This document shows, piece by piece, positions 11,677 to 34,354 of a stretch of DNA of 34,429 nt; within the stretch, counting starts at the first letter, position 1, and each line of letters begins with the position of its first letter. A program made the translations under genes and the position numbers. The stretch spans positions 1-34,429 of the forward strand of contig JAFZEI010000058.1 in NCBI GenBank assembly GCA_017560765.1, in the 5' to 3' direction. Source of the stretch: Clostridia bacterium. GTDB lineage: Bacteria; Bacillota; Clostridia; UBA1212; UBA1255. The notes under the pieces were generated by a model. The model saw only the letters and a list, made by a program, of their open reading frames with translations. It was not told where the DNA came from and ran no database searches.

Positions 11677-12936
11677 TTATTTTTTGATTGCAGCTATAAT
11701 TTTATCGGCAGAAGTATCCGGAGATGAACAATCGACAGAATAATCCTTCCAGGCGTTGTAAATCGGCAACCTCTCCTTAGCAAGCTTTTCCAAACTGCAG
11801 GACATGGAAATCGGACGACCATCTGTGGCAAGTTGATCTACAGGTCGGTTAAGCAGCACAATAATGCCGTTTTGCTTTAAAAGAGAGAGGTTGTTTGGAT
11901 TTTTAATAACACCACCGCCTGTAGCGATAATAAGATTGCTTTTTCGTGTAAATTCATCAAGAACTTCACTTTCGATTTTGCGGAAAGCAGGTTCTCCGTG
12001 TTTGGCAAAAAAGTCGCATATACTCATTTGAATCCTTTTTTCTATTTCCCAATCAATGTCTACAAAAGGACGTGACATCTTAGCGGCTAACATTTCACCT
12101 ACAGTACTCTTGCCGCAACCGGGCATACCTATAAGAATAATGTTTTTTGTTTCAGATTCAATTTGCAATGTGATGCGGTCGATTATTTCAGAGCTGTCAA
12201 GACCATCGGAGTAATTGCATCCTGTGAATATCTCAGATGCTTGTTTAGCTTGAGCTACTAACATAGGCAAACCATTTATATACGGAATGCCAAGGCGCTC
12301 TGCATCGAGTAAAAGCTTTGTTTTGGCAGGGTTAAATATAATGTCAATTACACCTATACAAGAATGAAAACGGTCTAATTCCACTGCAGAAACGCCGTTT
12401 TTGGGGTACATACCCATTGGCGTAGTATTTACGATAAAGCTTGCGTCGCTGTGAAGGTCATAAATGTTAGAGTAGTTATTATCTCCCGTCCTGGAAATTA
12501 CAATAACCTGGGCAGAACCCAAATCACGCAAGGCAGCGCAAGCCATAACGGAACTGCCGCCGCTTCCCAACACAAGCGTCTTTCCTTTAGAAACATCAAA
12601 ACCCGCTTTTTTTACCAAATATGTAAAACCGTAATAATCCGTATTATATCCTTTTATTTTGTTGCCGTTTTTAACGACTGTATTCACACTGCCGATTTTA
12701 GAAGCAACTTCTGAAACCTCATCACAAAGGCTGAACGCCAGCTTTTTGTAGGGGATTGTCACGTTGATTCCGTCGAAGTTACCAGAGCGCAAAAACGCTT
12801 CTGCTTCTTCAGGTGACTTCTCAAAAAGAGTATAGCTGTAATCTGCTAAGCAGCCGTGAATTTGGGGAGAAAAACTGTGCCCCAATTTTTCTCCCAATAA
12901 TCCGCTTTTAAATTTGGTAAAGCCGCATATCTTCAT
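11677..12936 (-). CDS. aroE-aroK: Fused shikimate dehydrogenase - shikimate kinase (AroE-AroK)
   Basis: 419 residues from the ATG at 12936, chosen because GAGG lies seven bases upstream; the frame extends further but overlaps pheA. Residues about 1-255 are AroE: the shikimate-binding GHSFSPQIH, the catalytic lysine in NVTIPYKK, NTDYYGFTYL, the nucleotide loop VLGSGGSS and NTTPMGMYP. Residues about 258-419 are AroK: Walker A IGMPGCGKSTVGEML, DIDWEIEKRI, GEPAFRKIESEVL, IIATGGGVI, and DGRPIS with an arginine in the lid. It would convert 3-dehydroshikimate to shikimate 3-phosphate in one protein. It is the last gene of the operon, 14 bases after pheA. Confidence 0.95.
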   Translation of the reverse strand: MKICGFTKFKSGLLGEKLGHSFSPQIHGCLADYSYTLFEKSPEEAEAFLRSGNFDGINVTIPYKKLAFSLCDEVSEVASKIGSVNTVVKNGNKIKGYNTDYYGFTYLVKKAGFDVSKGKTLVLGSGGSSVMACAALRDLGSAQVIVISRTGDNNYSNIYDLHSDASFIVNTTPMGMYPKNGVSAVELDRFHSCIGVIDIIFNPAKTKLLLDAERLGIPYINGLPMLVAQAKQASEIFTGCNYSDGLDSSEIIDRITLQIESETKNIILIGMPGCGKSTVGEMLAAKMSRPFVDIDWEIEKRIQMSICDFFAKHGEPAFRKIESEVLDEFTRKSNLIIATGGGVIKNPNNLSLLKQNGIIVLLNRPVDQLATDGRPISMSCSLEKLAKERLPIYNAWKDYSVDCSSPDTSADKIIAAIKK

Positions 12937-12950
12937 AAAAAACCTCAAAA

Positions 12951-14099
12951 TTAAATCATTTCTGAATAACTGCCCAAATAACGGAATTCTTCGCAAAGAC
13001 TGTCAAGCTCGCAAATGAGCTGAATGAATTCAGAAGAGTAAACAGGCGTATCTAAGTCAAAATAAAACATAAATTCAAAGTCACGATCCGGTATGGGACG
13101 GCTCTCTAATTTTACAAGGTTTATACCTAAAGCATAAAAACGAGCAAGAACTCTGTAAAGTGCGCCCGGTTTATGTGAAATAATCATCATAAGACTGGTA
13201 CGGTCAGCTCCGGGATAAATTTCAAGATTTTTAGAAATACAAATAAAACGAGTGTAGTTGTTTCCTTTGTCCTGTACAGACGAAGCAAGACAGTCAAGAC
13301 CGTAAAGCGGAGCGCAGGAGCGAGACGAAATGGCTGCCACGTCATCTCTGTCGGACTCAGCTACCATTTTGGCAGCAACAGCAGTGTTCTCCACAACAGT
13401 GACTTTTACGTTGTCAAGAGAATTAATATAGTTTGTGCATTGAGCCAAAGCGTGTTCGTGAGAATAAATTTCACGGATTTTACTGATGTCAGTGCCTTTT
13501 TTTGCCAAAAGATTATGGTCAACCTTAACACGTACACTGCGAACAATATTGAAATTATAGTACATCATTAAGTCATAAATCTGTTTAACGGAGCCTGCGG
13601 TACTGTTTTCTATCGGAAGCACACCGTAATCGCATAATCCTTTGTCAATAGAAGCAAAAATGCCCGCGAAATTGTTAAAATACATTATTCTTGGAATTTG
13701 GAAAAGTTTCTCGCAAGCGTGTTGAGAATAAGCACCCTCAACACCTTGGCATGCAACCGTTGCGCAAGGGGGGAAAAGCTTGTTTGTGTTATCAATCGCA
13801 TAGGAAACTTTTTCTTTTAAATTAGAAGAAGGATAAAGAATTCTGTCCTGATAAGAGCGGCTGAGCTCAAATAAAAGAGAGTAAAGAACGCTGGTGTATG
13901 ATTTAAATTCGCCGTTTGATTTTTCAATTAAATCGCTAAGCTTATCACGTTCGCGCTTTAAATCCATAACAGGCAAATTATTAGCTTTTTTATATTCGGC
14001 AATGCCGGAGGAAATATTCATACGCTCCTGAAACAAGCGAAGGATTTCATCATCAACAGCATCAATGCGCGCTCTTAAATCTTGTAAATTATTCTCCAT
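12951..14099 (-). CDS. pheA: Chorismate mutase - prephenate dehydratase (P-protein), copy 1
   Basis: 382 residues. The N-terminal AroQ-type chorismate mutase (1-90) keeps the expected active-site residues in LQDLRARIDAVD, QERMN, YKKAN, DLKRERD and SRSYQD. The prephenate dehydratase domain (about 110-290) has QGVEGAYSQHA, LPIENSTAGSV and the essential TRF motif in NNYTRFICIS. The C-terminal ACT domain has GALYRVLARF and ESRP, matching the GALV/ESRP motifs that bind phenylalanine in feedback-inhibited enzymes. It makes phenylpyruvate from chorismate. The ATG at 14099 is preferred over the GTG at 14108 because AGGA lies about ten bases upstream of it. It lies 32 bases after aroC. A second, divergent copy is at 31946. 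Confidence 0.95.
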   Translation of the reverse strand: MENNLQDLRARIDAVDDEILRLFQERMNISSGIAEYKKANNLPVMDLKRERDKLSDLIEKSNGEFKSYTSVLYSLLFELSRSYQDRILYPSSNLKEKVSYAIDNTNKLFPPCATVACQGVEGAYSQHACEKLFQIPRIMYFNNFAGIFASIDKGLCDYGVLPIENSTAGSVKQIYDLMMYYNFNIVRSVRVKVDHNLLAKKGTDISKIREIYSHEHALAQCTNYINSLDNVKVTVVENTAVAAKMVAESDRDDVAAISSRSCAPLYGLDCLASSVQDKGNNYTRFICISKNLEIYPGADRTSLMMIISHKPGALYRVLARFYALGINLVKLESRPIPDRDFEFMFYFDLDTPVYSSEFIQLICELDSLCEEFRYLGSYSEMI

Positions 14100-14131
14100 T
14101 AAAATCACATCCTATAAAAATTTAAATCATA

Positions 14132-15217
14132 TTAAATATTGTCACATATCATATCGTAAATTGCTATCGCTGCCGCGGCTTCTACACAAGGAACTGCTCG
14201 TGGCAAAATACAAGGGTCGTGGCGCCCTTTTACTGTAAGTTTTGTATTCTCCTTCGACGGAATGCATACGCTGCTTTGCTCCAGCCCGATTGAAGGGGTA
14301 GGCTTAACAGCAACACGAAAAATCAGAGGCATCCCTGAAGAAATACCGCCAAGAATTCCGCCGTGATTGTTTGTGGCTGTTTTAATCGAACCATCAGTAT
14401 CAAAATAAAAATCATCATTGTTTTCTGCACCTGTCATTTCGGCGACATTAAAGCCTGCTCCGAATTCAATGCCTTTAATGGCAGGAATGCCGAATACGCA
14501 TTGTGAAATTTTATTTTCAATGCCATCAAAAATAGGAGCTCCGATACCGGACGGCATACCAATAATAGCACATTCTATAACACCGCCAATGGAATTGCCC
14601 ACAGCCTTTTGTGCCAAAATCAACTCTGACATGGCGCATTCTGCATCATAATCCATAACGGGGAGTTCCTTTTCACGTACTTCCTCAAAATCTTGCAAAG
14701 AAACATTACAAGGATCATATAATCTGTCGCAAACAGTACCGATTTTTGAAATGTGTGCACCGACATAAATGCCGCGCTCTTTTAAAAGCTGGAGAATTAT
14801 ACCGCCTGCAACGCACAAGGGAGCAGTAAGTCTTCCTGAAAAATGACCTCCTCCGGTAGGATCTTGAAAGCCCTTATATTTTACATTTGCAGTAAAATCT
14901 GCATGGCCGGGGCGTGGAACATCTGCAAGATTACTGTAGTCGCCGGGACGAGTGTTTGTATTGCGTATTATTGCAGTTAAAGGAGCACCGCAAGTATGCC
15001 CATTTACAATACCGCTGAGAAATTCAGGCAAATCTGCCTCTTTGCGTGGAGTTGCATACTTAGAATTACCGGGAGCTCGGCGAGCAAGAAATCCTGATAG
15101 CTCGTCCATGTCAATTTTAAAACCAACCGGCAGACCATCGATAGTAACGCCTATGGCGGCGGAATGTGATTGCCCGAATATTGAGATTTTAAGATTTTTG
15201 CCAAAAACCGAAGACAT
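14132..15217 (-). CDS. aroC: Chorismate synthase, intact copy
   Basis: 361 residues, full family length. It contains SIFGQSHSAAIGVTIDGLP at the N-terminus, the arginine-rich FMN/EPSP-binding region (ARRAPG, NTNTRPGDY, RPGHADFTANVKY), the GGGHFSGRLTAPL signature, NNHGGILGGISSGMPL and GRHDPCILPRAVPCVEA near the end. It removes phosphate from EPSP using reduced FMN, giving chorismate. AAGGAG eight bases before the ATG is a good ribosome binding site. It lies 15 bases behind the EPSP-synthase fusion and ahead of pheA. It is distinct from the interrupted second aroC at 34067, so chorismate synthase function in this genome can rest on this copy. Confidence 0.97.
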   Translation of the reverse strand: MSSVFGKNLKISIFGQSHSAAIGVTIDGLPVGFKIDMDELSGFLARRAPGNSKYATPRKEADLPEFLSGIVNGHTCGAPLTAIIRNTNTRPGDYSNLADVPRPGHADFTANVKYKGFQDPTGGGHFSGRLTAPLCVAGGIILQLLKERGIYVGAHISKIGTVCDRLYDPCNVSLQDFEEVREKELPVMDYDAECAMSELILAQKAVGNSIGGVIECAIIGMPSGIGAPIFDGIENKISQCVFGIPAIKGIEFGAGFNVAEMTGAENNDDFYFDTDGSIKTATNNHGGILGGISSGMPLIFRVAVKPTPSIGLEQSSVCIPSKENTKLTVKGRHDPCILPRAVPCVEAAAAIAIYDMICDNI

Positions 15218-15232
15218 ATTGTCACTCCTTTG

Positions 15233-17539
15233 TTATTTTATCTTCATATTGTCATAATCCTGCCAGAAAAGAGGGTAGGATTTGTTTACTGCATCAGAAT
15301 CCGTGATAACCATTTTGTCTGAGCAAACTGTAGCTGCAATTGCCGCTGTCATAGCAATTCTATGGTCATTGTGGCTGTTTACCGTGCCGCCTTTGAGACA
15401 GAAATTATTCGGCTCTGCATGTTTCTCGGCAGTACGGTAACCGTTAATAATCAGACCATCCTCAGTTGGCTGTATATCAGCGCCCAAAGAACCAAGCAAA
15501 TCACAAACTGTTGCAATCCTGTCGCTTTCTTTTAATTTTAAGCGTTGAGCATTGTAAATTTTTGTTGCACCGTTTGCACAAGCTGCAGCTAAAGATAAAA
15601 TCGGTACAAGGTCAGGTATATCGGAAGCATCAATTTCGATACCTTGCAGACAGGAGGGAAGCACTGTTACATCGCACAAACTATCGTCAGAATATGATGT
15701 GCTTTTTGATACGGAAACAGTAGCACCGAATCGTTTTAGAATATCAAGAACGGCCTTATCTCCTTGTGCTGAATCATTGCGAAGCCCTGTAACGCAAACG
15801 GGGTTATTACCTATCGCTCCTGCAGTCAACCAAAAGGCAGCGTTTGACCAATCTCCGTCAGCACGGAAAGACAGCATTCCGTCCGGGTGACGGAAATTCT
15901 TGTTACCTCCTACTAAAATAAGAGAATCGCTTACTGCCTTTATATCAACGCCAAAGTGAGTAAGAACCTCTAATGTCATATCAACGTAGGGTCGTGATTC
16001 TAATTTACCGATAATATGAATCTCACTTTTTTCTCCAAGCAATGGAAGCGCGAAAAGCAGACCTGTTATATATTGTGAAGAAACATTGCCTGCAATTTCA
16101 AATTTGCCGCCGCGCAATTTGCCGGAAGTTTTAAAAGGCACCGTTCCAACAGAGTCTACGGAACATCCGTGGTTTATAAGTTCCTCGCGAAGAGGAGATA
16201 AAGGACGATTTGGCAATCTTCCTTCAGGATAAAACTGTGCGTTTATACCTAAAGCGCAAGCAACAGGTAACAAAAAGCGTAAAGTAGAACCGCTTTCTCC
16301 GCAATAAAGCTGTGCGTCTGCATTTTTTGGCACCGTATTTGTACGCTCAACTATTATTTCGCTGCCATTTACGGAAATTTTTGTACCTAATGCCTGTAAA
16401 CATTTTATCGTTGCTGATATATCTTCGGAAAGCTTGCCACCGCATGTGATTTTGGTGGTAGTACCGTACAGTGCTGCAGCAATCAGCAATCTGTGTACAT
16501 GAGATTTGGACGGAATCGCGTCCACAATTCCTCTTAACTGCGGGCGGTAAAACGAAACGAATTTTTTTGCCACATTGTTAATAGGTTTGCCGTCAATGTA
16601 TGCTTTAAGATTATCAACCACTATATTTACAAGTCTTTTACGAGCTTCAAAAGAAGCCCATGCAATATGAGGTGTGATAATGCAATTCGGTGCGTCGAAA
16701 TATGGATGATCGGCACGCATCGGTTCACCATCGAGTACGTCAATTCCGGCTCCTGCAATTGTACCTTTGTAAAGCGCCTCTGCAAGTGCTTCTTCGTCAA
16801 TAGTGCCGCCTCTTGAAGTGTTAATAATAAAAGCTGTTTTCTTCATCTTTGATAAAGAGTCTTCGTTTATGATCTTTTTTGTTTTATCAGTCAGAGGGCA
16901 GTGGATAGTCAGAAAATCTGATTCTGATAGCAACTCGTTAAAAGAGACAACTTTGTAAGGACAATTTTTTGGCGACGTACGCGTATGAATTATGGGTTGC
17001 ATGCCGAAAGCTTCACCGATTTTTGCTACAGCTTTGCCAATGGCTCCGTAGCCTAAAATTCCTAATTTCTTGCCTGAAAGTTCAATAATGGGAAAATCAA
17101 AATACGTAAAAATTTTAGATTTTTTCCAATCTCCTTCATGTACTGATTTATCGTATTTTATTATATTTGATGCTAAATTTAAAATTAATGCAAAAGTATG
17201 CTGAGCAACGGAGTCTGTAGAATAACCGGGAACATTACTGACTGTGATATTTTGCTTTGATGCAAAAGTTGTATCAATATTGTCATAGCCGGTTGCCCAC
17301 AATCCGATATATTTAAGCTCGGGGCATTTGGATAAAACTTCTTCTGTAAACTTTGCCTTACTGCAAATTACTGCTTCGGCGCCTTTTACAATGTCTTCTA
17401 ATTTACCATCGGGAACATTGTCATAAACAGTTACATCACCGAGGTTTGTTAATTCATCTAAATTTATATCGCCATTTGGAGTAACGGCGTTTTTTTCTAA
17501 AATAACTATTTTTTTATTACTGTATTTACTTTTAACCAT
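15233..17539 (-). CDS. aroA: Fusion of D-2-hydroxyacid (glycerate-type) dehydrogenase with EPSP synthase
   Basis: About 768 residues in one uninterrupted frame. Residues about 8-322 are a D-2-hydroxyacid dehydrogenase resembling HprA: YIGLWATGYDNID, NVPGYSTDSVAQHTFAL, the NAD loop GILGYGAIGKAV, catalytic Arg in NTSRGGTIDEEAL, Glu in GAGIDVLDGEP and His in ITPHIAWAS. Residues about 333-768 are EPSP synthase: PSKSHVHRLLIAAAL, CGESGSTLRFLLP, GRLPNRPLSPL, SSQYITGLLFALPL, DIPDLVPILSLAAA, LKESDRIATV, NDHRIAMTAAI and NKSYPLFW. Both halves look catalytically complete and are joined almost without a linker. EPSP synthase joins shikimate 3-phosphate to PEP; the dehydrogenase substrate is unknown. ATG 17539 fits the upstream AGGA far better than ATG 17548. 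Confidence 0.92.
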   Translation of the reverse strand: MVKSKYSNKKIVILEKNAVTPNGDINLDELTNLGDVTVYDNVPDGKLEDIVKGAEAVICSKAKFTEEVLSKCPELKYIGLWATGYDNIDTTFASKQNITVSNVPGYSTDSVAQHTFALILNLASNIIKYDKSVHEGDWKKSKIFTYFDFPIIELSGKKLGILGYGAIGKAVAKIGEAFGMQPIIHTRTSPKNCPYKVVSFNELLSESDFLTIHCPLTDKTKKIINEDSLSKMKKTAFIINTSRGGTIDEEALAEALYKGTIAGAGIDVLDGEPMRADHPYFDAPNCIITPHIAWASFEARKRLVNIVVDNLKAYIDGKPINNVAKKFVSFYRPQLRGIVDAIPSKSHVHRLLIAAALYGTTTKITCGGKLSEDISATIKCLQALGTKISVNGSEIIVERTNTVPKNADAQLYCGESGSTLRFLLPVACALGINAQFYPEGRLPNRPLSPLREELINHGCSVDSVGTVPFKTSGKLRGGKFEIAGNVSSQYITGLLFALPLLGEKSEIHIIGKLESRPYVDMTLEVLTHFGVDIKAVSDSLILVGGNKNFRHPDGMLSFRADGDWSNAAFWLTAGAIGNNPVCVTGLRNDSAQGDKAVLDILKRFGATVSVSKSTSYSDDSLCDVTVLPSCLQGIEIDASDIPDLVPILSLAAACANGATKIYNAQRLKLKESDRIATVCDLLGSLGADIQPTEDGLIINGYRTAEKHAEPNNFCLKGGTVNSHNDHRIAMTAAIAATVCSDKMVITDSDAVNKSYPLFWQDYDNMKIK

Positions 17540-17571
17540 ATCATTCATTCCTGTCTTAGCTTTTTACCTTT

Positions 17572-27086: not shown

Positions 27087-27170
27087 GCGACCGTGGCGGA
27101 ATTGGCAGACGCGCACGTTTGAGGGGCGTGTGGTACTCCCGTACGAGTTCAAGTCTCGTCGGTCGCACCA
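27087..27170 (+). tRNA. tRNA-Leu (anticodon GAG)
   Basis: 84 bases including encoded CCA. The acceptor arms GCGACCG and CGGTCGC pair perfectly. The D-loop has GGCAGAC, the anticodon GAG is at 27121-27123 within the loop TTGAGGG, the variable arm is long as expected for a class II tRNA, and the T-arm carries GTTCAAGTC. The anticodon stem closes with a T-G wobble. It has its own promoter and terminator. It borders a region with an integrase remnant, a common situation for tRNA genes. Confidence 0.97.
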
Positions 27171-27173
27171 AAT

Positions 27174-27222
27174 AAGACCGATCATTTTGATACGAAAGTA
27201 TCTGAATGATCGGTCTTTATAT
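27174..27222 (+). terminator. Rho-independent terminator of tRNA-Leu
   Basis: A perfect 13-base-pair stem (AAGACCGATCATT with AATGATCGGTCTT), with an inner GATAC-GAAA-GTATC hairpin in the loop, follows the tRNA by three bases and is trailed by a short T/A-rich run. Confidence 0.88.
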
Positions 27223-27284
27223 TTAAAATTTTACGAATCTATGATACGATTAGATAAAAAACTTGAATTTGACGAGGAGGTACT

Positions 27285-27746
27285 ATGGATTATCAAGCTA
27301 AGCTGAATGAACATCTTCAAGTAATCGTTGGAAAGCAATTAGTTGCGCTGAATATGGCATGTGAAATGATGATGTTCAGCTTTGGGAAACATGAACTCCA
27401 CGCCCAGTGCCTTACTCGCATTATTTGCAGGAATGATGTTCTTGTAACAACTTTGGATTACCAAAGTTGGGATGGCGAAACAGAAAAAAATAACGATGAA
27501 TGGTATTTTGTTGAACAAAACAGAGGAAAAATAGTAGGTGGCACGGTAACATCTGTAAATGTCAATGCTTTGCACGACATCACCATTGTTTTAGACAACG
27601 GTATAAGTATCGAACTGTTTGTAAAGAATGGCTACCATCATTTTGATGATGAGCAAGAACAATGGGTGTTTTTCAAACATCATAACCATTCCTATCCGTT
27701 CATTACTGTGTACAATAAAACCGTTGATATCGCAGTAGATTGGTAA
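27285..27746 (+). CDS. Hypothetical protein beside the integrase remnant
   Basis: 153 residues starting at ATG 27285 with GAGGAGG about eight bases upstream, a strong site that supports a real gene. It has no signal peptide or membrane segment. The sequence is acidic, aromatic and histidine-rich toward the end (YHHFDDEQEQWVFFKHHNHSYPF) and has a beta-forming stretch GGTVTSVNVNALHDITIVLDNGISIELF. I do not recognise the family; the small size and position next to a mobile-element remnant recall immunity-like or accessory cargo genes, but nothing in the sequence proves this. It ends at a probable bidirectional terminator. Confidence 0.6.
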   Translation: MDYQAKLNEHLQVIVGKQLVALNMACEMMMFSFGKHELHAQCLTRIICRNDVLVTTLDYQSWDGETEKNNDEWYFVEQNRGKIVGGTVTSVNVNALHDITIVLDNGISIELFVKNGYHHFDDEQEQWVFFKHHNHSYPFITVYNKTVDIAVDW

Positions 27747-27809
27747 CGCTATATTGAGATAACAGTTAGACAAATTCCAATTTATCAAACAATAACTGTT
27801 CTATACTCT

Positions 27810-27836
27810 AAAAACCCTTGATATTACTGGGTTTTT
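27810..27836. terminator. Probable bidirectional terminator
   Basis: AAAAACCC (27810-27817) and GGGTTTTT (27829-27836) form an A/T-flanked hairpin usable in either direction. It lies between the hypothetical gene and the convergent integrase remnant. Confidence 0.6.
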
Positions 27837-27915
27837 CGTTGATTTCAAACTCAACTGTTATGTATTTTCCCTTGTTTTTGCCCTTATGAGCGAAAATAAG
27901 GGAAACTTTTTATAT

Positions 27916-28134
27916 CTAACCGCTAACTACCTTATCAAGCAGTCTTGCGGAAGTACGCTTCGCCTCTCTTGTAGAGTGAGCGTAGACATTCATCGTGGTA
28001 CTAACATCAGAGTGACCTAAAAGCTCCTGCACATCCTTCGGCGATGGTTCGTTTATGTAACGAAGAATATCCCTGCAGAGTTGTATCCCATATAAAACCA
28101 TGTTTTGCTTATGGGATAACGGGTGTCCCCACAA
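27916..28134 (-). pseudogene. Tyrosine recombinase/integrase, C-terminal remnant
   Basis: About 56 codons match the end of a phage/conjugative-element tyrosine integrase: DVQELLGHSDVSTTMNVYAHSTREAKRTSARLLDKVV, in which the GH histidine and the catalytic tyrosine (VYAH) are kept. The preceding residues (about HPLSHKQNMVLYGIQ) no longer resemble the HxxR-containing part, and the rest of the enzyme is absent, so it cannot be active. It lies about 750 bases past tRNA-Leu and just before the compositionally different aromatic locus, which marks an old insertion or a decayed island. Confidence 0.8.
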
Positions 28135-28463: not shown

Positions 28464-28495
28464 CAGACGACAATTAAATACGTTGTAACACTAAA

Positions 28496-28772
28496 TGCGA
28501 AGATCAGAAACCAGTAGGTTGGAAAGAATCTGGAGAGAGTTGCCGGTTGGTGCGAGGCAAAGTGGACGTCCTTCTGAATTCATTCTGTTAGCAGTGCGCT
28601 GAATCAGAGATATCTGTAGTAGGATGCAACGGGAGTTCCCGTCATAGAACTAAGGTATGTTAGTACCTGAAAAGGTCACTATCGTGAGGTAGTGATAAAT
28701 TGAGGTGGTACCACGGGAACATTGATTTTCTCGTCCTCTGTATTCTTTATCGGAATGCGGAGGGCGTTTTTA
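28496..28772 (+). promoter_or_regulatory. T-box riboswitch leader, probable Phe (TTC) specifier, with terminator
   Basis: Stem I elements appear in order: AGTA (28513-28516), AGAGAG (28534-28539), the distal GGTGCGA loop (28549-28555) and GAATTCA (28576-28582), in which TTC at 28579-28581 occupies the specifier position, giving phenylalanine. The T-box core TGAGGTGGTACCACGGG is at 28701-28717. The terminator stem CGTCCTC/GAGGGCG (28732-28766) is followed by TTTTTATTTG. Uncharged tRNA-Phe would stabilise the antiterminator and permit reading into the ligase and ACT genes. T-box identity is firm; specifier identity is less so. Confidence 0.9.
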
Positions 28773-28846
28773 TTTGTCCTTTCACACTCCGGCCTAACAA
28801 ATTTACAGCTTAGATAATCTAAGCGCAAAATGAAAGGGTGGTCAAA

Positions 28847-30154
28847 ATGGCACAAAACTATTACCAAAAAGAAATCGAAACAATGCCTGTTGAGGAAATG
28901 AAAAAACTTCAATCCGAAAAACTCGTTAAACAGGTGAAGCACGTTTATGAAAACGTACCCTACTACAAAAACCTTATGGACGAGAAAGGTGTAAAGCCGG
29001 AAGACATCAAAGGAATTGATGATCTTCACAAACTTCCGTTCCTTACCAAAGCAGATTTACGTGATGCATACCCGTATGGTCTGCTTGCAAAACCTCTTGA
29101 CGATTGTGTTCGTATACAATCCACTTCGGGTACAACCGGACGACGTGTTGTTGCGTTCTATACACAAAACGATATTGATTTATGGGAAGACTGCTGCGCT
29201 CGTGCAATCGTAGCTGCAGGCGGCACGAAAAAGGATGTTTGTCAAGTAGCTTATGGCTACGGACTCTTCACCGGAGGTCCCGGTCTCAATGGTGGTTCGC
29301 ATAAAGTGGGTTGCCTTACATTGCCGATGTCTTCAGGTAACACTGAACGTCAAATTCAATTTATGACAGATCTTGGCGCTACTATTCTTTGTTGTACTCC
29401 TTCTTATGCAGCATATATTGCTGAAACTCTCAAAGAACAAGGATACAAACCCGAAGATATTTCTTTAAAAGCTGGTATCTTTGGTGCAGAACCTTGGACG
29501 GAAGAAATGCGTCGAGGCATCGAGGAATCTCTCGGAATTAAGGCTTATGATATTTACGGTCTTACTGAAACTACCGGTCCCGGCGTTTCTTTTGAATGTA
29601 GCGAACAAACCGGTATGCACGTAAACGAAGACCACTTCTATGCAGAAATTATCGATCCGGATACCGGCGAGGTTCTTCCTGAAGGTAGCAAAGGTGAACT
29701 TGTATTTACTTCTCTTGACAAAGAAGCCTTTCCATTACTTCGTTATCGTACCCGTGATATTTGCGTGCTTTCTCGTAAAAAATGTTCTTGTGGTCGCACA
29801 CTTATTAAAATGGCAAAGCCTATGGGTAGAACCGATGATATGCTTATTATCCGTGGCGTAAATGTTTTCCCAAGTCAAATTGAAACCGTTCTTTTGAATG
29901 AGGGATACGAACCCAACTACCAAATTGTTGTTGACCGTGTAAATAACAATGACACATTTGAAGTAAACGTAGAAATGACTGCTGAGAAATTCACTGACAA
30001 GGTTGCTGAGATTATCGCTTTGGAAAAATCTCTCGCTAACGCACTAAAAACAATGCTCGGTATTAATCCTGCTGTTCACCTTGTTGCTCCTAAGAGCATT
30101 GCAAGAAGTGAAGGCAAAGCAGTTCGTGTTGTAGATAAGAGAAAACTTATCTAA
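28847..30154 (+). CDS. paaK: Phenylacetate-CoA ligase (PaaK family)
   Basis: 435 residues from the ATG at 28847 (AAAGGGTGG upstream). PaaK features: VPYYKNLMDEKGVKPEDIKGIDDLHKLPFLTKADLRDAYP near the N-terminus, the P-loop STSGTTGRRVVAFYT, YGYGLFTGGPGLNGG, YGLTETTGPGVSFEC, the TRD motif in RYRTRDICVL, and RSEGKAVRVVDKRKL at the end. It activates aryl acetates to CoA thioesters with ATP. It is usually seen with indolepyruvate:ferredoxin oxidoreductase and an ACT protein; the ACT partner is here, the oxidoreductase is not. Control by a Phe-type T-box points to a biosynthetic (phenylacetate salvage) rather than degradative role. Arginine codons are mostly CGT, unlike the left part of the window. 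Confidence 0.93.
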   Translation: MAQNYYQKEIETMPVEEMKKLQSEKLVKQVKHVYENVPYYKNLMDEKGVKPEDIKGIDDLHKLPFLTKADLRDAYPYGLLAKPLDDCVRIQSTSGTTGRRVVAFYTQNDIDLWEDCCARAIVAAGGTKKDVCQVAYGYGLFTGGPGLNGGSHKVGCLTLPMSSGNTERQIQFMTDLGATILCCTPSYAAYIAETLKEQGYKPEDISLKAGIFGAEPWTEEMRRGIEESLGIKAYDIYGLTETTGPGVSFECSEQTGMHVNEDHFYAEIIDPDTGEVLPEGSKGELVFTSLDKEAFPLLRYRTRDICVLSRKKCSCGRTLIKMAKPMGRTDDMLIIRGVNVFPSQIETVLLNEGYEPNYQIVVDRVNNNDTFEVNVEMTAEKFTDKVAEIIALEKSLANALKTMLGINPAVHLVAPKSIARSEGKAVRVVDKRKLI

Positions 30155-30175: not shown

Positions 30176-30607
30176 ATGGCTATTAAACAATTAACAGTAT
30201 TCGTTGAAAACAAACAAGGAACGGTTGTATCTATTACCGATACACTTTCCAAGCATAACATCAATCTTAGAGCGCTTTCTATTGCAGAGACACAAGATTT
30301 TGGTATCCTTCGTCTTATCGTAAACGATGAAGAATCCGCAGAAAAGATTTTGAAAGAGGAAGGCTATCTCATCAAGATTACCGATGTTGTTGGTGTTAAA
30401 ATCGGTGATGAAGCAGGCAAACTCTCCGAAGCATTGAAAGTTCTTGATGACAACAAAATCAATATGGAATATCTTTATGCCTTTATGGCTCGCACCGAAA
30501 AACACGCCTATGTGGTTATTCGTGTTGAAGATCATACTGCTGCTGAAACTGCGCTTGCAGACGCAGGCTTCAAACTTGTTACAGAGGCAGATGTTGAAAA
30601 ACTTTAA
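30176..30607 (+). CDS. Tandem ACT-domain protein
   Basis: 143 residues containing two ACT domains: VFVENKQGTVVSITDTLSKHNINLRALSIAE at 8-38 and an analogous AGKLSEALKVLDDNKINMEYLYAFM at 80-104. ACT pairs bind amino acids as regulators. This type commonly follows paaK genes in anaerobes. It starts 21 bases after paaK with AGGAG, in the T-box-controlled transcript. A likely role is sensing phenylalanine or tyrosine and adjusting the neighbouring ligase, but the partner is inferred. Confidence 0.88.
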   Translation: MAIKQLTVFVENKQGTVVSITDTLSKHNINLRALSIAETQDFGILRLIVNDEESAEKILKEEGYLIKITDVVGVKIGDEAGKLSEALKVLDDNKINMEYLYAFMARTEKHAYVVIRVEDHTAAETALADAGFKLVTEADVEKL

Positions 30608-30666: not shown

Positions 30667-30695
30667 TTTACAAATGATGGATGTTATGTTATACT
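30667..30695 (+). promoter_or_regulatory. Sigma-A promoter of the aroF attenuator operon
   Basis: TTTACA (30667-30672), a 17-base spacer, then TATACT (30690-30695) preceded by an extended TG (30687-30688). Transcription should begin near 30702, nine bases before the AAGGAG of the leader peptide. Confidence 0.75.
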
Positions 30696-30725
30696 AACAA
30701 AAATCGCAGAAAGGAGACGGGAGTT

Positions 30726-30815
30726 GTGACAAAGTTTGATATTTATTTTTATTACTTTATTAGGGGCTGCCCGTCTTCTTTGATACCCAAAAAACAAACT
30801 CTTTGGGTTGAATAA
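30726..30815 (+). CDS. Aromatic-rich leader peptide of an attenuator
   Basis: A 29-codon frame starts at GTG 30726 with AAGGAG (30711-30716) nine bases upstream and ends at TAA 30813. It begins MTKFDIYFYYFI: codons 4, 7, 8, 9, 10 and 11 are Phe or Tyr, a density expected of a control peptide that stalls when Phe- or Tyr-tRNA is scarce. The frame sits directly before alternative RNA hairpins and the DAHP synthase gene. An in-frame ATG at 30681 lies upstream of the likely transcription start and is not used. Confidence 0.72.
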   Translation: MTKFDIYFYYFIRGCPSSLIPKKQTLWVE

Positions 30816-30872
30816 AACGGACAGTCCGCATTTGTTGTGCTTTTGCACTGAACAGGTGCGGACTTATTTTTT
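30764..30872 (+). terminator. Attenuator: mutually exclusive antiterminator and terminator before aroF
   Basis: The terminator pairs GTCCGCA (30824-30830) with TGCGGAC (30857-30863), with inner TGTT/AACA and GTGC-TTTT-GCAC stems, followed by TTATTTTTT. The antiterminator pairs GGGCTGCCCGT (30764-30774) with ACGGACAGTCC (30817-30827), ten of eleven positions including one G-U, and encloses a further ACCCAAA/TTTGGGT hairpin. The two structures share 30824-30827, so only one can form. A ribosome stalled on the Phe/Tyr codons would favour the antiterminator; one moving on covers the 30764-30774 arm and favours termination. Confidence 0.78.
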
Positions 30873-30902
30873 GAAAACAAATCAGAATTGAGGTAAAAAA
30901 CA

Positions 30903-31931
30903 ATGCAAATGAATTTCCACAGAAAATTACCCATCCCTCAGGATGTAAAAAAAGATTATCCGTTAACCGAGCGTATGACAGAGGTTAAAGCGGCTCGTGA
31001 TGAGGCTATTCGTGCCGTGTTCGACGGCAGTTCAGATAAATTTATTCTTGTTATCGGTCCTTGTTCTGCCGATCATAGCGAACCTGTGCTTGAATATGTT
31101 TCAAGACTTCGCAAAATTGAAGAGCAAGTAAAAGATAAAATCATCATTATTCCTCGTATTTACACAAACAAACCGAGAACTACCGGGCAGGGATACAAAG
31201 GCATGCTTCATCAGCCCGATCCTGATGCAAAACCGGATATGTATAAAGGTATCGTAGCAATTCGTGAATTGCATCTTGCAGTTTTGCGTGATTATGATTT
31301 TTCTTGTGCAGATGAGATGCTTTATCCCGAAAACTATCGTTACCTTTCTGACCTTCTTTCCTATGTAGCAGTCGGAGCAAGATCAGTTGAGAATCAACAA
31401 CACAGACTGGTTGCAAGTGGAATTGGCGCTCCTGTTGGTATGAAGAATCCTACAGGCGGAGATCTTAGCGTTATGATGAACTCCATTGTAGCGGCGCAAT
31501 CAAGTCATACATTCATATATCGTGGTTGGGAAGTCACAAGTGAGGGCAACCCATATTCTCACGCAATTCTTCGTGGATATATTGATTTTGCAGGCAGAAA
31601 TGTGTCGAACTATCATTACGAGGATCTGCTTCGTGTGGAAGAACTATATGAAAAATCCAACCTCACAAATCCTTCGGTTATTGTTGATACCAACCATAAC
31701 AACTCCGGCAAGAAATATCTTGAGCAGGTTCGTATTGCAAAGGATATTGTTTATAGCCGCAATCAGAATACAGACATTAAACGCCTTGTGAAAGGCCTTA
31801 TGATTGAAAGTTACCTTGAGGATGGTGCTTGCAAACCGGAAGAACATATTTTTGGTAAATCCATTACCGACCCCTGCCTTGGTTGGGAGAAGACCGAGAA
31901 ACTAATTCTCGATCTTGCAGATAAACTTTAA
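30903..31931 (+). CDS. aroF: 3-deoxy-7-phosphoheptulonate (DAHP) synthase, type I alpha
   Basis: 342 residues of the E. coli AroFGH type. Metal and substrate residues are visible: Cys in VIGPCSADHSEPVLEY, the PEP site NKPRTTGQGYKG, GARSVENQQHRLVASG, KNPTGG, the His in VIVDTNHNNSGK, Glu in MIESYLEDG and Asp in SITDPCLGW. It condenses PEP with erythrose 4-phosphate, the first committed step to aromatic amino acids. The window's first aro operon lacks this enzyme. Expression appears controlled by the Phe/Tyr leader attenuator upstream. The ATG at 30903 follows GAGG at 30890-30893. Confidence 0.96.
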   Translation: MQMNFHRKLPIPQDVKKDYPLTERMTEVKAARDEAIRAVFDGSSDKFILVIGPCSADHSEPVLEYVSRLRKIEEQVKDKIIIIPRIYTNKPRTTGQGYKGMLHQPDPDAKPDMYKGIVAIRELHLAVLRDYDFSCADEMLYPENYRYLSDLLSYVAVGARSVENQQHRLVASGIGAPVGMKNPTGGDLSVMMNSIVAAQSSHTFIYRGWEVTSEGNPYSHAILRGYIDFAGRNVSNYHYEDLLRVEELYEKSNLTNPSVIVDTNHNNSGKKYLEQVRIAKDIVYSRNQNTDIKRLVKGLMIESYLEDGACKPEEHIFGKSITDPCLGWEKTEKLILDLADKL

Positions 31932-31945
31932 CAAGAGGTTGAACA

Positions 31946-33037
31946 ATGATGTCAAACAAGTTAGAAGAAGCAAGAAAAATCATTAATGAAGTGGACTCGC
32001 AAATGGCAGAACTGTTCGTCAAGCGAATGAGAGCCGCTGAAATGGTTTATGAATACAAGAAAGAATTCGGACTTCCCATTCTCGACCAAAAAAGAGAGGA
32101 TGCCGTTATTGAGAAGAATTCAGCACTTGTTGAAGATGAGGTTTTAAAAGGATATTATATTGATTACATAAAACACTTAATGTCTGTATCCCGTGCGTAT
32201 CAATTCCGTATGCAAAGCGGACTTAAAGTGGCTTATAGCGGGGTTGAAGGCGCGTTTGCTCATATTGCGGCAGGCAGAATCTTCCCCGAAGGAAACCGTG
32301 TTTCATACAGTGATTTTAAGGCGGCTTATGATTCAGTTGTCAATGGTGAAAGCGACGTGGCCGTTCTTCCTATTGAGAACAGTTATGCTGGGGAAGTTGG
32401 TCAAACGATGGATCTTATCTTCTCAGGAAATCTTTATCTCAACGGAATTTATGAACTTGAAATACACCAAAATCTTTTAGGTCTACCCGGTGCTAACGTT
32501 GACGACATCAAGAAAGTAACAAGCCATCCGCAAGCACTAAGCCAATGCCACGATTACATAAAGTTGCGCGGATTTGAAACCGAGGAAGCCAATAATACCG
32601 CCCTTGCAGCAAAGACTGTAGCGGATGCTAATGATAAAACACTCGGCGCCATTGCAAGCGTTGAAACTGCTGAAATCTACGGACTCAAAGTAATCGAAGC
32701 TAACATTAACAAAAGCGGTGAGAATACTACACGCTTTGCGGTGCTATCCAAAGTGAAGGCGGCGTCCCCCTCGCTTTCAAGCACGGTTTTGATGTTTACC
32801 GTTAAGCACGAGGCAGGCTCCTTGGCAAATGCCATTGGCATCATCGGACAGTACGGATACAGCATGACGGCGCTTCGTTCAAGACCTATGAAAAAACATT
32901 CTTGGCAGTATTATTTCTATGTGGAAATTGACGGCACTACCGATAGCGAGAACGGTGCAAAAATGCTTGAAGAATTAAGCAAGGTATGTGATAAACTAAA
33001 GGTAGCAGGTACGTTTGCTCCGCATATCGAGATATAA
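31946..33037 (+). CDS. pheA: Chorismate mutase - prephenate dehydratase (P-protein), copy 2
   Basis: 363 residues. The chorismate mutase domain (1-90) retains the active-site pattern in LEEARKIINEVD, KRMRAA, YKKEF, DQKRED and SVSRAYQ. The dehydratase domain has YSGVEGAFAHIAAG, LPIENSYAGEVGQ and the TRF motif in NTTRFAVLS. In the ACT domain the phenylalanine-binding GALV and ESRP motifs read GSLA and RSRP, so feedback may be altered compared with copy 1. It is 14 bases downstream of DAHP synthase and overlaps no neighbour. The adjacent ATGs at 31946 and 31949 are both possible starts. Confidence 0.95.
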   Translation: MMSNKLEEARKIINEVDSQMAELFVKRMRAAEMVYEYKKEFGLPILDQKREDAVIEKNSALVEDEVLKGYYIDYIKHLMSVSRAYQFRMQSGLKVAYSGVEGAFAHIAAGRIFPEGNRVSYSDFKAAYDSVVNGESDVAVLPIENSYAGEVGQTMDLIFSGNLYLNGIYELEIHQNLLGLPGANVDDIKKVTSHPQALSQCHDYIKLRGFETEEANNTALAAKTVADANDKTLGAIASVETAEIYGLKVIEANINKSGENTTRFAVLSKVKAASPSLSSTVLMFTVKHEAGSLANAIGIIGQYGYSMTALRSRPMKKHSWQYYFYVEIDGTTDSENGAKMLEELSKVCDKLKVAGTFAPHIEI

Positions 33038-33047
33038 GGTGAGGGAA

Positions 33048-34064
33048 ATGACGATTCATATGAATTTAGGTGAGGATAGCTACGATATAGTCGTAGAGCG
33101 TGGTGTCCTTTCCAAAGCAAATAAACAGTTAAATCTGAACAGACGAGTCCTTGTTGTGACAGATTCAGTCGTTCCTGAAGAGTATGCCAAATCACTTGCT
33201 TCGCAATGCAAGGAAGGAATTATTTACACTGTGCCTATGGGTGAAGCTTCGAAAAGCCTTGATATATTGGGTAAAGTACTTGGTACGATGCTCGATAACG
33301 GATTTTCACGAAAGGATTGCGTTGTTGCAGTCGGTGGCGGTGTTGTCGGTGATCTTGCAGGATTTGCGGCATCCGCATATATGAGAGGCATTGATTTCTA
33401 CAATATTCCAACAACTCTTCTTTCGCAGATTGATTCCTCCATTGGCGGTAAAACGGCTATTAACTTCGGTGGCGTGAAGAATATTGTAGGCGCATTTTAT
33501 CAACCGAAAAAGGTTTTGATTGACCCCGATCTTCTCGCAACTCTTCCCGAAAGACAAATCTCGAATGGACTTGCCGAAGCGATTAAGATGGCGCTAACAT
33601 CTGATAAAGAACTTTTTGATATTTTTGAAAACAAAGTTATCGACGAAAACATCGACGAAATTATAATTCGTTCTCTTAATATTAAAAAGAGCGTAGTAGA
33701 ACAAGATGAGAAGGAATCGGGACTTCGCAAGATACTTAATTTCGGTCATACAATCGGGCATGGTATTGAAAGCAGCGAAGAAATGAGCGAACTTTATCAC
33801 GGCGAATGTGTTGCGCTTGGTATGATACCGATGTGCAGTAATACGATTCGTCCGAGACTGATAAAGGTTTTGAAAAAATGCGGTCTTTATCGTATACTTA
33901 AATATGATTGGGACAAGATTACCGAAGCGGCGTTTCACGACAAAAAAGCGGATGGAGATACTGTAACAATTACCGTGGTAAATGAGATCGGCAGTTTTGA
34001 AATGAAAAAGATTGGTTGCCTTGATGTAATTGATGTGGCAAAGAATATCTTGGAGGATTTGTGA
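33048..34064 (+). CDS. aroB: 3-dehydroquinate synthase
   Basis: 338 residues from the ATG at 33048 (GTGAGGG upstream); the frame extends into pheA but without support. AroB motifs: VLVVTDSVVPEEYA, the NAD loop VAVGGGVVGDLAGFAASAYMRGI, TTLLSQIDSSIGGKTAIN, ALPEAIK-type NGLAEAIKMAL, and metal ligands in NFGHTIGHGIE and ELYHGECVALGM. It cyclises DAHP to 3-dehydroquinate, the second shikimate step, absent from the first aro operon. It lies ten bases after pheA and two bases before the interrupted aroC. Confidence 0.96.
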   Translation: MTIHMNLGEDSYDIVVERGVLSKANKQLNLNRRVLVVTDSVVPEEYAKSLASQCKEGIIYTVPMGEASKSLDILGKVLGTMLDNGFSRKDCVVAVGGGVVGDLAGFAASAYMRGIDFYNIPTTLLSQIDSSIGGKTAINFGGVKNIVGAFYQPKKVLIDPDLLATLPERQISNGLAEAIKMALTSDKELFDIFENKVIDENIDEIIIRSLNIKKSVVEQDEKESGLRKILNFGHTIGHGIESSEEMSELYHGECVALGMIPMCSNTIRPRLIKVLKKCGLYRILKYDWDKITEAAFHDKKADGDTVTITVVNEIGSFEMKKIGCLDVIDVAKNILEDL

Positions 34065-34066
34065 GC

Positions 34067-34354
34067 ATGAAGAACACATTTGGAAATAGCGTGGCGGTAA
34101 CTCTTTTTGGAGAAAGCCACGGAGAATATATCGGTGCGGTTATAGATGGACTTGCACCTGGTATTAAAATTGATCACGAATATATCTCACATATGCTCAC
34201 TCTTCGTCGCCCCGATGGTAAAATCTCAACACCTCAAAAAGAAAAAGATGAGTATAAAATCGTTAGTGGTGTGATGGATAACACAACCATATGGAAAAAT
34301 TTACGGGCGACTCCTTCCGTGATCTTACACGAATTGCAAGAATCAACGATTTGA
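34067..34354 (+). pseudogene. aroC: Chorismate synthase copy 2, truncated after about 73 codons
   Basis: From the ATG at 34067 (GGAGG ten bases upstream), about 73 residues match the chorismate synthase N-terminus, including VTLFGESHGEYIGAVIDGLAP, LRRPDGKISTP and KIVSGVMDNTT. The match stops at about 34287, where TGTPL-type residues should follow. The frame instead continues for about 21 unrelated codons to a TGA. The downstream DNA encodes, in another frame, the C-terminal part of prephenate dehydrogenase. Essential FMN- and EPSP-binding regions are missing, so the product cannot be chorismate synthase. The intact copy is at 14132-15217. Confidence 0.85.

Follow-up and report, generated by a model that had tools for sequence, protein, structure and literature searches.

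What controls the aromatic operon aroF-pheA-aroB-aroC at the end of the DNA analysed here, a stretch of 34,429 nucleotides from a Clostridia bacterium that we call the window? Aromatic operons of Clostridia are generally attributed to T-boxes. A sequence-only reading of the window had instead proposed that a ribosome-mediated transcription attenuator sensing Phe and Tyr stands before aroF, and the comparative evidence collected here strongly supports that proposal, to which we give a probability of about 0.92. The element occupies 30667-30872 on the plus strand and consists of the following parts.

30667..30695, plus strand: sigma-70-type promoter, TTTACA-17-TATACT with TG ahead of the -10, kept in sequence and position in 50 of 57 leaders
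30710..30725, plus strand: strand 1, the 5' arm of the 1:2 stem, holding the Shine-Dalgarno AAGGAG (30711-30716); from folding and partner permutation
30726..30815, plus strand: leader peptide ORF of 29 codons, GTG start, TAA stop, VTKFDIYFYYFIRGCPSSLIPKKQTLWVE; from ORF reading
30735..30758, plus strand: sensor block, codons 4-11, with six Phe/Tyr codons; rich in Phe/Tyr codons throughout the family
30764..30774, plus strand: strand 2, GGGCTGCCCGT, partner of strand 1 (off) or strand 3 (on); from alignment and covariation
30786..30807, plus strand: small hairpin between strands 2 and 3; from folding, family mean z -2.6
30817..30827, plus strand: strand 3, ACGGACAGTCC, the 3' arm of the antiterminator; from alignment and covariation
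30823..30872, plus strand: terminator, hairpin 3:4 (30823-30864) and T-run to 30872; from folding and covariation

Most of these parts had been described before and were found again, namely the extended -10 promoter, the AAGGAG, the GTG-started peptide with six Phe/Tyr residues in codons 4-11 (they stand at codons 4 and 7-11) and the antiterminator, in which a direct check of 30764-30774 against 30817-30827 gave 10 of 11 pairs and one C-A mismatch. The 3' half of strand 3 doubles as the base of the terminator hairpin (-26.6 kcal/mol, z -5.9), and the mutual exclusion of antiterminator and U-tract terminator that had been claimed is borne out by covariation in both helices and by the strand they share. 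The gap before aroF, given earlier as 31 bases, is 30 bases, from the end of the T-run at 30872 to the ATG at 30903. The 1:2 stem, absent from the earlier description, joins 30710-30725 with 30765-30781 (-26.3 kcal/mol for that piece, z -4.1); it pairs the Shine-Dalgarno of the leader with strand 2 and competes with 2:3. Folding of 30690-30902 gave z -5.6, and none of 200 dinucleotide-preserving shuffles matched the fold energy of the leader. Moreover, the same anatomy recurs with covariation in 57 distinct leaders, and hence it is not a product of chance.

These leaders were collected as follows. In the genus of the window, a leader-carrying aroF is present in one of five genomes, the window's own, and a search through genus, family and order found no leader outside that genome. 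Since the operon looks acquired and nearer taxa gave no leader, we turned to AroF relatives from other Clostridia, where the same leader stands before aroF in 33 of 80 related aroF loci; at L053, among these 80, the leader stands before pheA-tyrA-aroF. A covariance model (R1), trained on 35 aroF leaders only, was run on two draws of Clostridia genomes (391 and 295) and had matches in 5 and 19 of them, respectively. Genome-wide, R1 found 22 leaders outside the window's genome, and each of the 22 is immediately followed by the leading gene of an aromatic operon, which is aroF in 7 cases, a PLP aminotransferase in 7 and pheA in 8. Longer stretches, where retrieved, show pheA-aroB-aroC-aroE/K downstream of the matches, and one such operon was confirmed by NCBIfam. 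Because 15 of the 22 matches precede gene types absent from the training set, this result is an independent check. After removal of duplicates (L092, L088, L097), the family comprises 57 distinct leaders. The element is scattered through Clostridia and not universal; as judged by sequence comparison, it is conserved before aromatic operons in dozens of Clostridia from gut and rumen.

Some loci depart from the single arrangement. Tandem leaders are found at -356 and -156 from aroF in L010, at -325 and -148 in L011, and at -336 and -148 in L013, where the nearer copy has a decayed strand 2 (GGACTTGCGC). About 45-193 bases before aroF of L054 lies an unrelated leader that encodes a Phe-only peptide (MNNKLNFNNNFAFSFSFFGFTAEGVNLLCKNV) and has a strong terminator of its own, which on its sequence is apparently an independently evolved Phe attenuator.

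Pairing of the alternative helices was scored over the 57 leaders in alignment A3, a model alignment in which the 2:3 helix is not part of the model's structure. In 2:3, 87.1% of cells are paired and two-sided changes occur at 8 of 11 pairs; compensatory cells number 22 against a shuffled mean of 6.2, and none of 500 shuffles was as high. In 3:4, 93.4% of cells are paired, compensatory changes occur at 7 of 7 pairs, and the 23 compensatory cells compare with 7.3 after shuffling (0/500 as high); A3 leans to the model's structure for this helix, and the structure-free MAFFT alignment A1 agrees. In L049, strands 2, 3 and 4 are altered in concert, as a shared strand requires. Exchange of partners between leaders worsened pairing in all three stems, with energies of -18.5 (own) and -14.6 kcal/mol (swapped) for 1:2, -15.2 and -14.3 kcal/mol for 2:3, and -12.7 and -11.0 kcal/mol for 3:4, with 0, 1 and 0 of 20000 permutations as good, respectively, in permutations over the 57 leaders that leave kinship among sequences in place. 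A central antiterminator position is mismatched in 44 of 57 leaders (A3 columns 45/115; 30770 and 30821 in the window), and this conserved mismatch may tune the switch. If the locus held only a constitutive terminator beside an unrelated small protein, serving noise control without amino-acid sensing, neither a covarying competitor of the terminator nor the exclusive position of the leaders before Phe/Tyr pathway operons would be expected, and we find such an arrangement scarcely credible.

A leader ORF is present in 57 of 57 leaders, beginning 36-48 bases before strand 2, and each ORF is preceded at normal spacing by a sequence that agrees with AGGAGG in 4 or more of the 6 positions, although starts were picked partly by this match score. 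Of the 510 codons in the block that precedes strand 2, 384 (75%) specify Phe or Tyr (TTT 158, TTC 27, TAT 122, TAC 77), and similar non-aromatic codons are rare (TTA 0, TTG 2, CTT 1, ATT 4, TCT 2). TTT/TTC thus occur 185 times and TTA/TTG twice, and both synonymous and Phe/Tyr swaps occur. The near-absence of Leu and other U-rich codons indicates that the amino acid is kept, and not mere U-richness. Among 1294 residues of the family peptides, Phe (228) and Tyr (206) are used about equally and Trp appears twice; the peptides of L044 and L091 have Phe only and no Tyr. In relatives, then, both the aromatic codons and the stems are conserved, with compensatory changes and with the Phe/Tyr codons in frame, the opposite of the outcome that the sequence-only reading had named as refuting it. 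The stop codon lies most often at +30 from strand 2 (29/57) and at +48 in the window. At the usual stop of the family the window has CAA (30795-30797), and its peptide is longer by six codons, one of which is for Trp; this length is atypical of the family.

In a rival reading, the nascent chain (FYYFYYFxKGCP) might itself arrest translation, possibly together with a small molecule, in the manner of tryptophanase-type leaders, and its sequence does look conserved, including GCP past the aromatic run. However, the order of Phe and Tyr varies freely, and L049 has GRL instead of GCP together with matching changes in strand 3. In L051, L058 and L095, the aromatic block is in the frame of the start and GGCTGCCCG is read in another frame, leaving GCP out of frame, and hence what is conserved in this segment is the RNA and not the peptide. 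An arrest-peptide leader of the TnaC or Erm type was rejected, as conserved stalling residues are absent and the residues after the aromatic run vary or are out of frame in these four leaders; we consider it very unlikely. The codon record also bears on another rival, in which the ORF would be incidental and the RNA itself would bind a ligand or a protein, as a riboswitch or a TRAP-like or T-box-like element does. High conservation of strands 2 and 3 and T-box control of related operons would suit such an RNA, but the alternative helices and the ORF account for the conserved bases and the Phe/Tyr codons are kept at the amino-acid level. In addition, the window leader matched no Rfam family, the amino-acid leader models (Phe, Trp, His, Thr, Leu) included, and the T-box model matched only the separate T-box at 28491-28741. 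A binding RNA is thus extremely unlikely.

At least 9 of 12 promoter bases match in the -35 and -10 boxes of 50 of 57 leaders, compared with 14% of shuffled sequences; the spacer is nearly always 17 bases, and the -10 mostly ends 67-85 bases before strand 2. A promoter so placed should start transcription shortly before strand 1. A start downstream of 30726, which had been named as evidence that would speak against attenuation, is unlikely with the promoter kept at a near-fixed distance upstream.

The sequence and structural features by which an attenuator is recognised are present, namely an ORF with a ribosome-binding site, a run of end-product codons, exclusive 2:3 and 3:4 helices and a competing 1:2 stem, and the operons behind the leaders make Phe and Tyr, matching the sensor codons. 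Parts, conservation, compensatory changes and gene context of the attenuator are observed directly. For stalling, termination and the response to amino acids, we infer the following course. RNA polymerase would set out shortly before strand 1, and translation of the leader peptide would begin. With ample Phe- and Tyr-tRNA, the ribosome would cross the aromatic codons and strand 2 while strands 3 and 4 are made; strand 2 would be masked, the terminator 3:4 would form, and transcription would end near 30872. Behind the passing ribosome, strand 2 would pair again with strand 1 and hide the Shine-Dalgarno. When Phe or Tyr is short, the ribosome would stall early in the aromatic block and keep strand 1 off strand 2, and the freed strand 2 would pair with strand 3, no terminator would form and the operon would be read.

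Constrained folding is consistent with this course. When a ribosome was taken to stall at the first aromatic codon, and the bases it covers and all bases 5' of it were closed, 2:3 formed in 56 of 57 leaders; when strand 2 was covered by the ribosome, 3:4 formed in 56 of 57; and without constraint, the transcript as far as the end of strand 3 folded into 1:2 in 33 of 57. A stall that leaves strand 1 free still permits 1:2 on paper, hence steric exclusion must be assumed, and our model supposes, as is usual, that strands 1 and 2 are kept from pairing by a ribosome lying between them. Moreover, as the usual stop lies at +30 beyond strand 2, the ribosome must mask strand 2 in passing and not at the stop. 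A thermodynamic fold of the whole leader, undecided between 1:2 and 2:3, was dropped as proof of switching.

The leader is set among the following genes and a T-box.

28491..28741, plus strand: T-box leader of the paaK-ACT genes, putative specifier TTC (Phe); RF00230 and alignment
28838-30154, plus strand: paaK-like CoA ligase, between T-box and leader
30176-30607, plus strand: ACT-domain protein, between T-box and leader
30903..31931, plus strand: aroF, class I DAHP synthase (AroFGH type), first regulated gene; TIGR00034 above cut-off
31946..33037, plus strand: pheA, chorismate mutase/prephenate dehydratase, second copy, probably acquired; profile match and genus comparison
33015..34064, plus strand: aroB, 3-dehydroquinate synthase; the listed ORF overlaps pheA and the true start is probably further in
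34061..34354, plus strand: start of aroC, chorismate synthase-like ORF ending early, close to the contig end; in related operons it follows aroB

The upstream T-box had been noted before and is confirmed, and its transcript had been taken as separate from and adjacent to that of aroF. Separate transcripts are not necessary: in the window, the interval from the ACT gene to the leader yielded no terminator-like site, so transcripts from the T-box promoter would cross the attenuator too. The triplet that we take to be the specifier, from general T-box anatomy, is TTC in the window and TTC or TTT in 9 of 10 aligned T-boxes. In L050, the T-box directly before aroF (2696-2958) has a putative specifier other than TTC or TTT.

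A T-box lies directly before aroF in L007, L008, L030, L043 and L050, and before paaK-ACT-aroF without an attenuator in L014, L021, L022, L032 and L036; the order T-box-paaK-ACT-leader-aroF is found in the window, L019 and L060. The nearest AroF relatives of the window, L007 and L008 (93% identical), have a T-box and no attenuator. Placing the four arrangements on the AroF tree takes 16 changes, but most shallow forks are weak, too weak for an exact count of T-box/attenuator exchanges; well-supported branches give at least two changes per T-box arrangement. It is possible, at somewhat under even odds, that T-box and attenuator were repeatedly swapped before aroF in Clostridia and that in the window, L019 and L060 they form a two-step gate in series on one transcript. 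If so, the series gate would probe tRNA charging first without, and then with, translation.

The region with the leader-controlled operon looks, by sequence comparison, like a genomic island. The other pheA of the window (12951-14108, minus strand) is present in all five genomes of the genus and a leader-controlled aroF in one, and similarity to the congener G002 stops at 27170, the 3' end of tRNA-Leu(gag); 27087-28100 is probably the island border. The contig may alternatively be chimeric, which we keep in mind because it ends inside the operon. Near 27920-28060 on the minus strand, a remnant of a tyrosine-recombinase C-terminus was recognised by eye. Both pheA and aroC occur twice in the genome, and the two pheA copies share only 31% identity. 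A second aromatic cluster, common to the genus (11677-17548, minus strand), comprises an aroE-aroK fusion, pheA, aroC and a 2-hydroxyacid-dehydrogenase/aroA fusion ORF.

Enterobacterial Phe leaders (pheA, pheST) and the trp attenuator have a peptide with regulatory codons, stems 1:2, 2:3 and 3:4, and an intrinsic terminator. The Clostridia leader shares the regulatory-codon peptide, the alternative stems and the intrinsic terminator; unlike these systems, it mixes Phe and Tyr codons, holds its own Shine-Dalgarno in strand 1, and is found in Clostridia before aroF, pheA or a shikimate operon led by an aminotransferase. Its nearest published relative, compared by text description, is the uORFC-13-1 motif before Acholeplasma aroF, for which attenuation through Phe incorporation was proposed (Brewer et al. 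2021, PMC8632094). Both have a promoter, a ribosome-binding site and a uORF with Phe codon(s), followed by a terminator and aroF. However, the 24 uORFC-13-1 sequences are from Acholeplasma and unassigned environmental sources only and have at least one Phe (PMC8632094), whereas the Clostridia leader has a Phe/Tyr run. The Leu-rich leader of S. aureus ilv-leu, which has some experimental support (PMC5794164), is likewise a Firmicute leader-peptide attenuator over amino-acid synthesis, but it serves branched-chain amino acids in Bacilli and its sequence is unrelated. With these two precedents, peptide attenuators, which the sequence-only reading described as best known in enterobacteria, are not new to Firmicutes. 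A 2005 comparative paper states that classical attenuation is used by no aminoacyl-tRNA-synthetase genes in Firmicutes (PMC1262725).

We found no description of the Clostridia leader family in Rfam or open papers, and nothing relevant on Clostridia aromatic leader peptides in the open literature. The mechanism class is classical; the leader family and the T-box/attenuator exchange appear undescribed in the open literature. The family adds a covariation-supported attenuator to Clostridia and offers a marker by which operons under Phe/Tyr control can be recognised in genomes from gut and rumen. The T-box (RF00230) has the same physiological role as the attenuator and stands before aroF or paaK-ACT-aroF in close relatives, but it is a different RNA that senses uncharged tRNA directly, without translation. 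Since near-relative aroF genes have a T-box, an attenuator or both, these two regulatory solutions can be compared, and their possible exchange is the most interesting aspect of the leader family.
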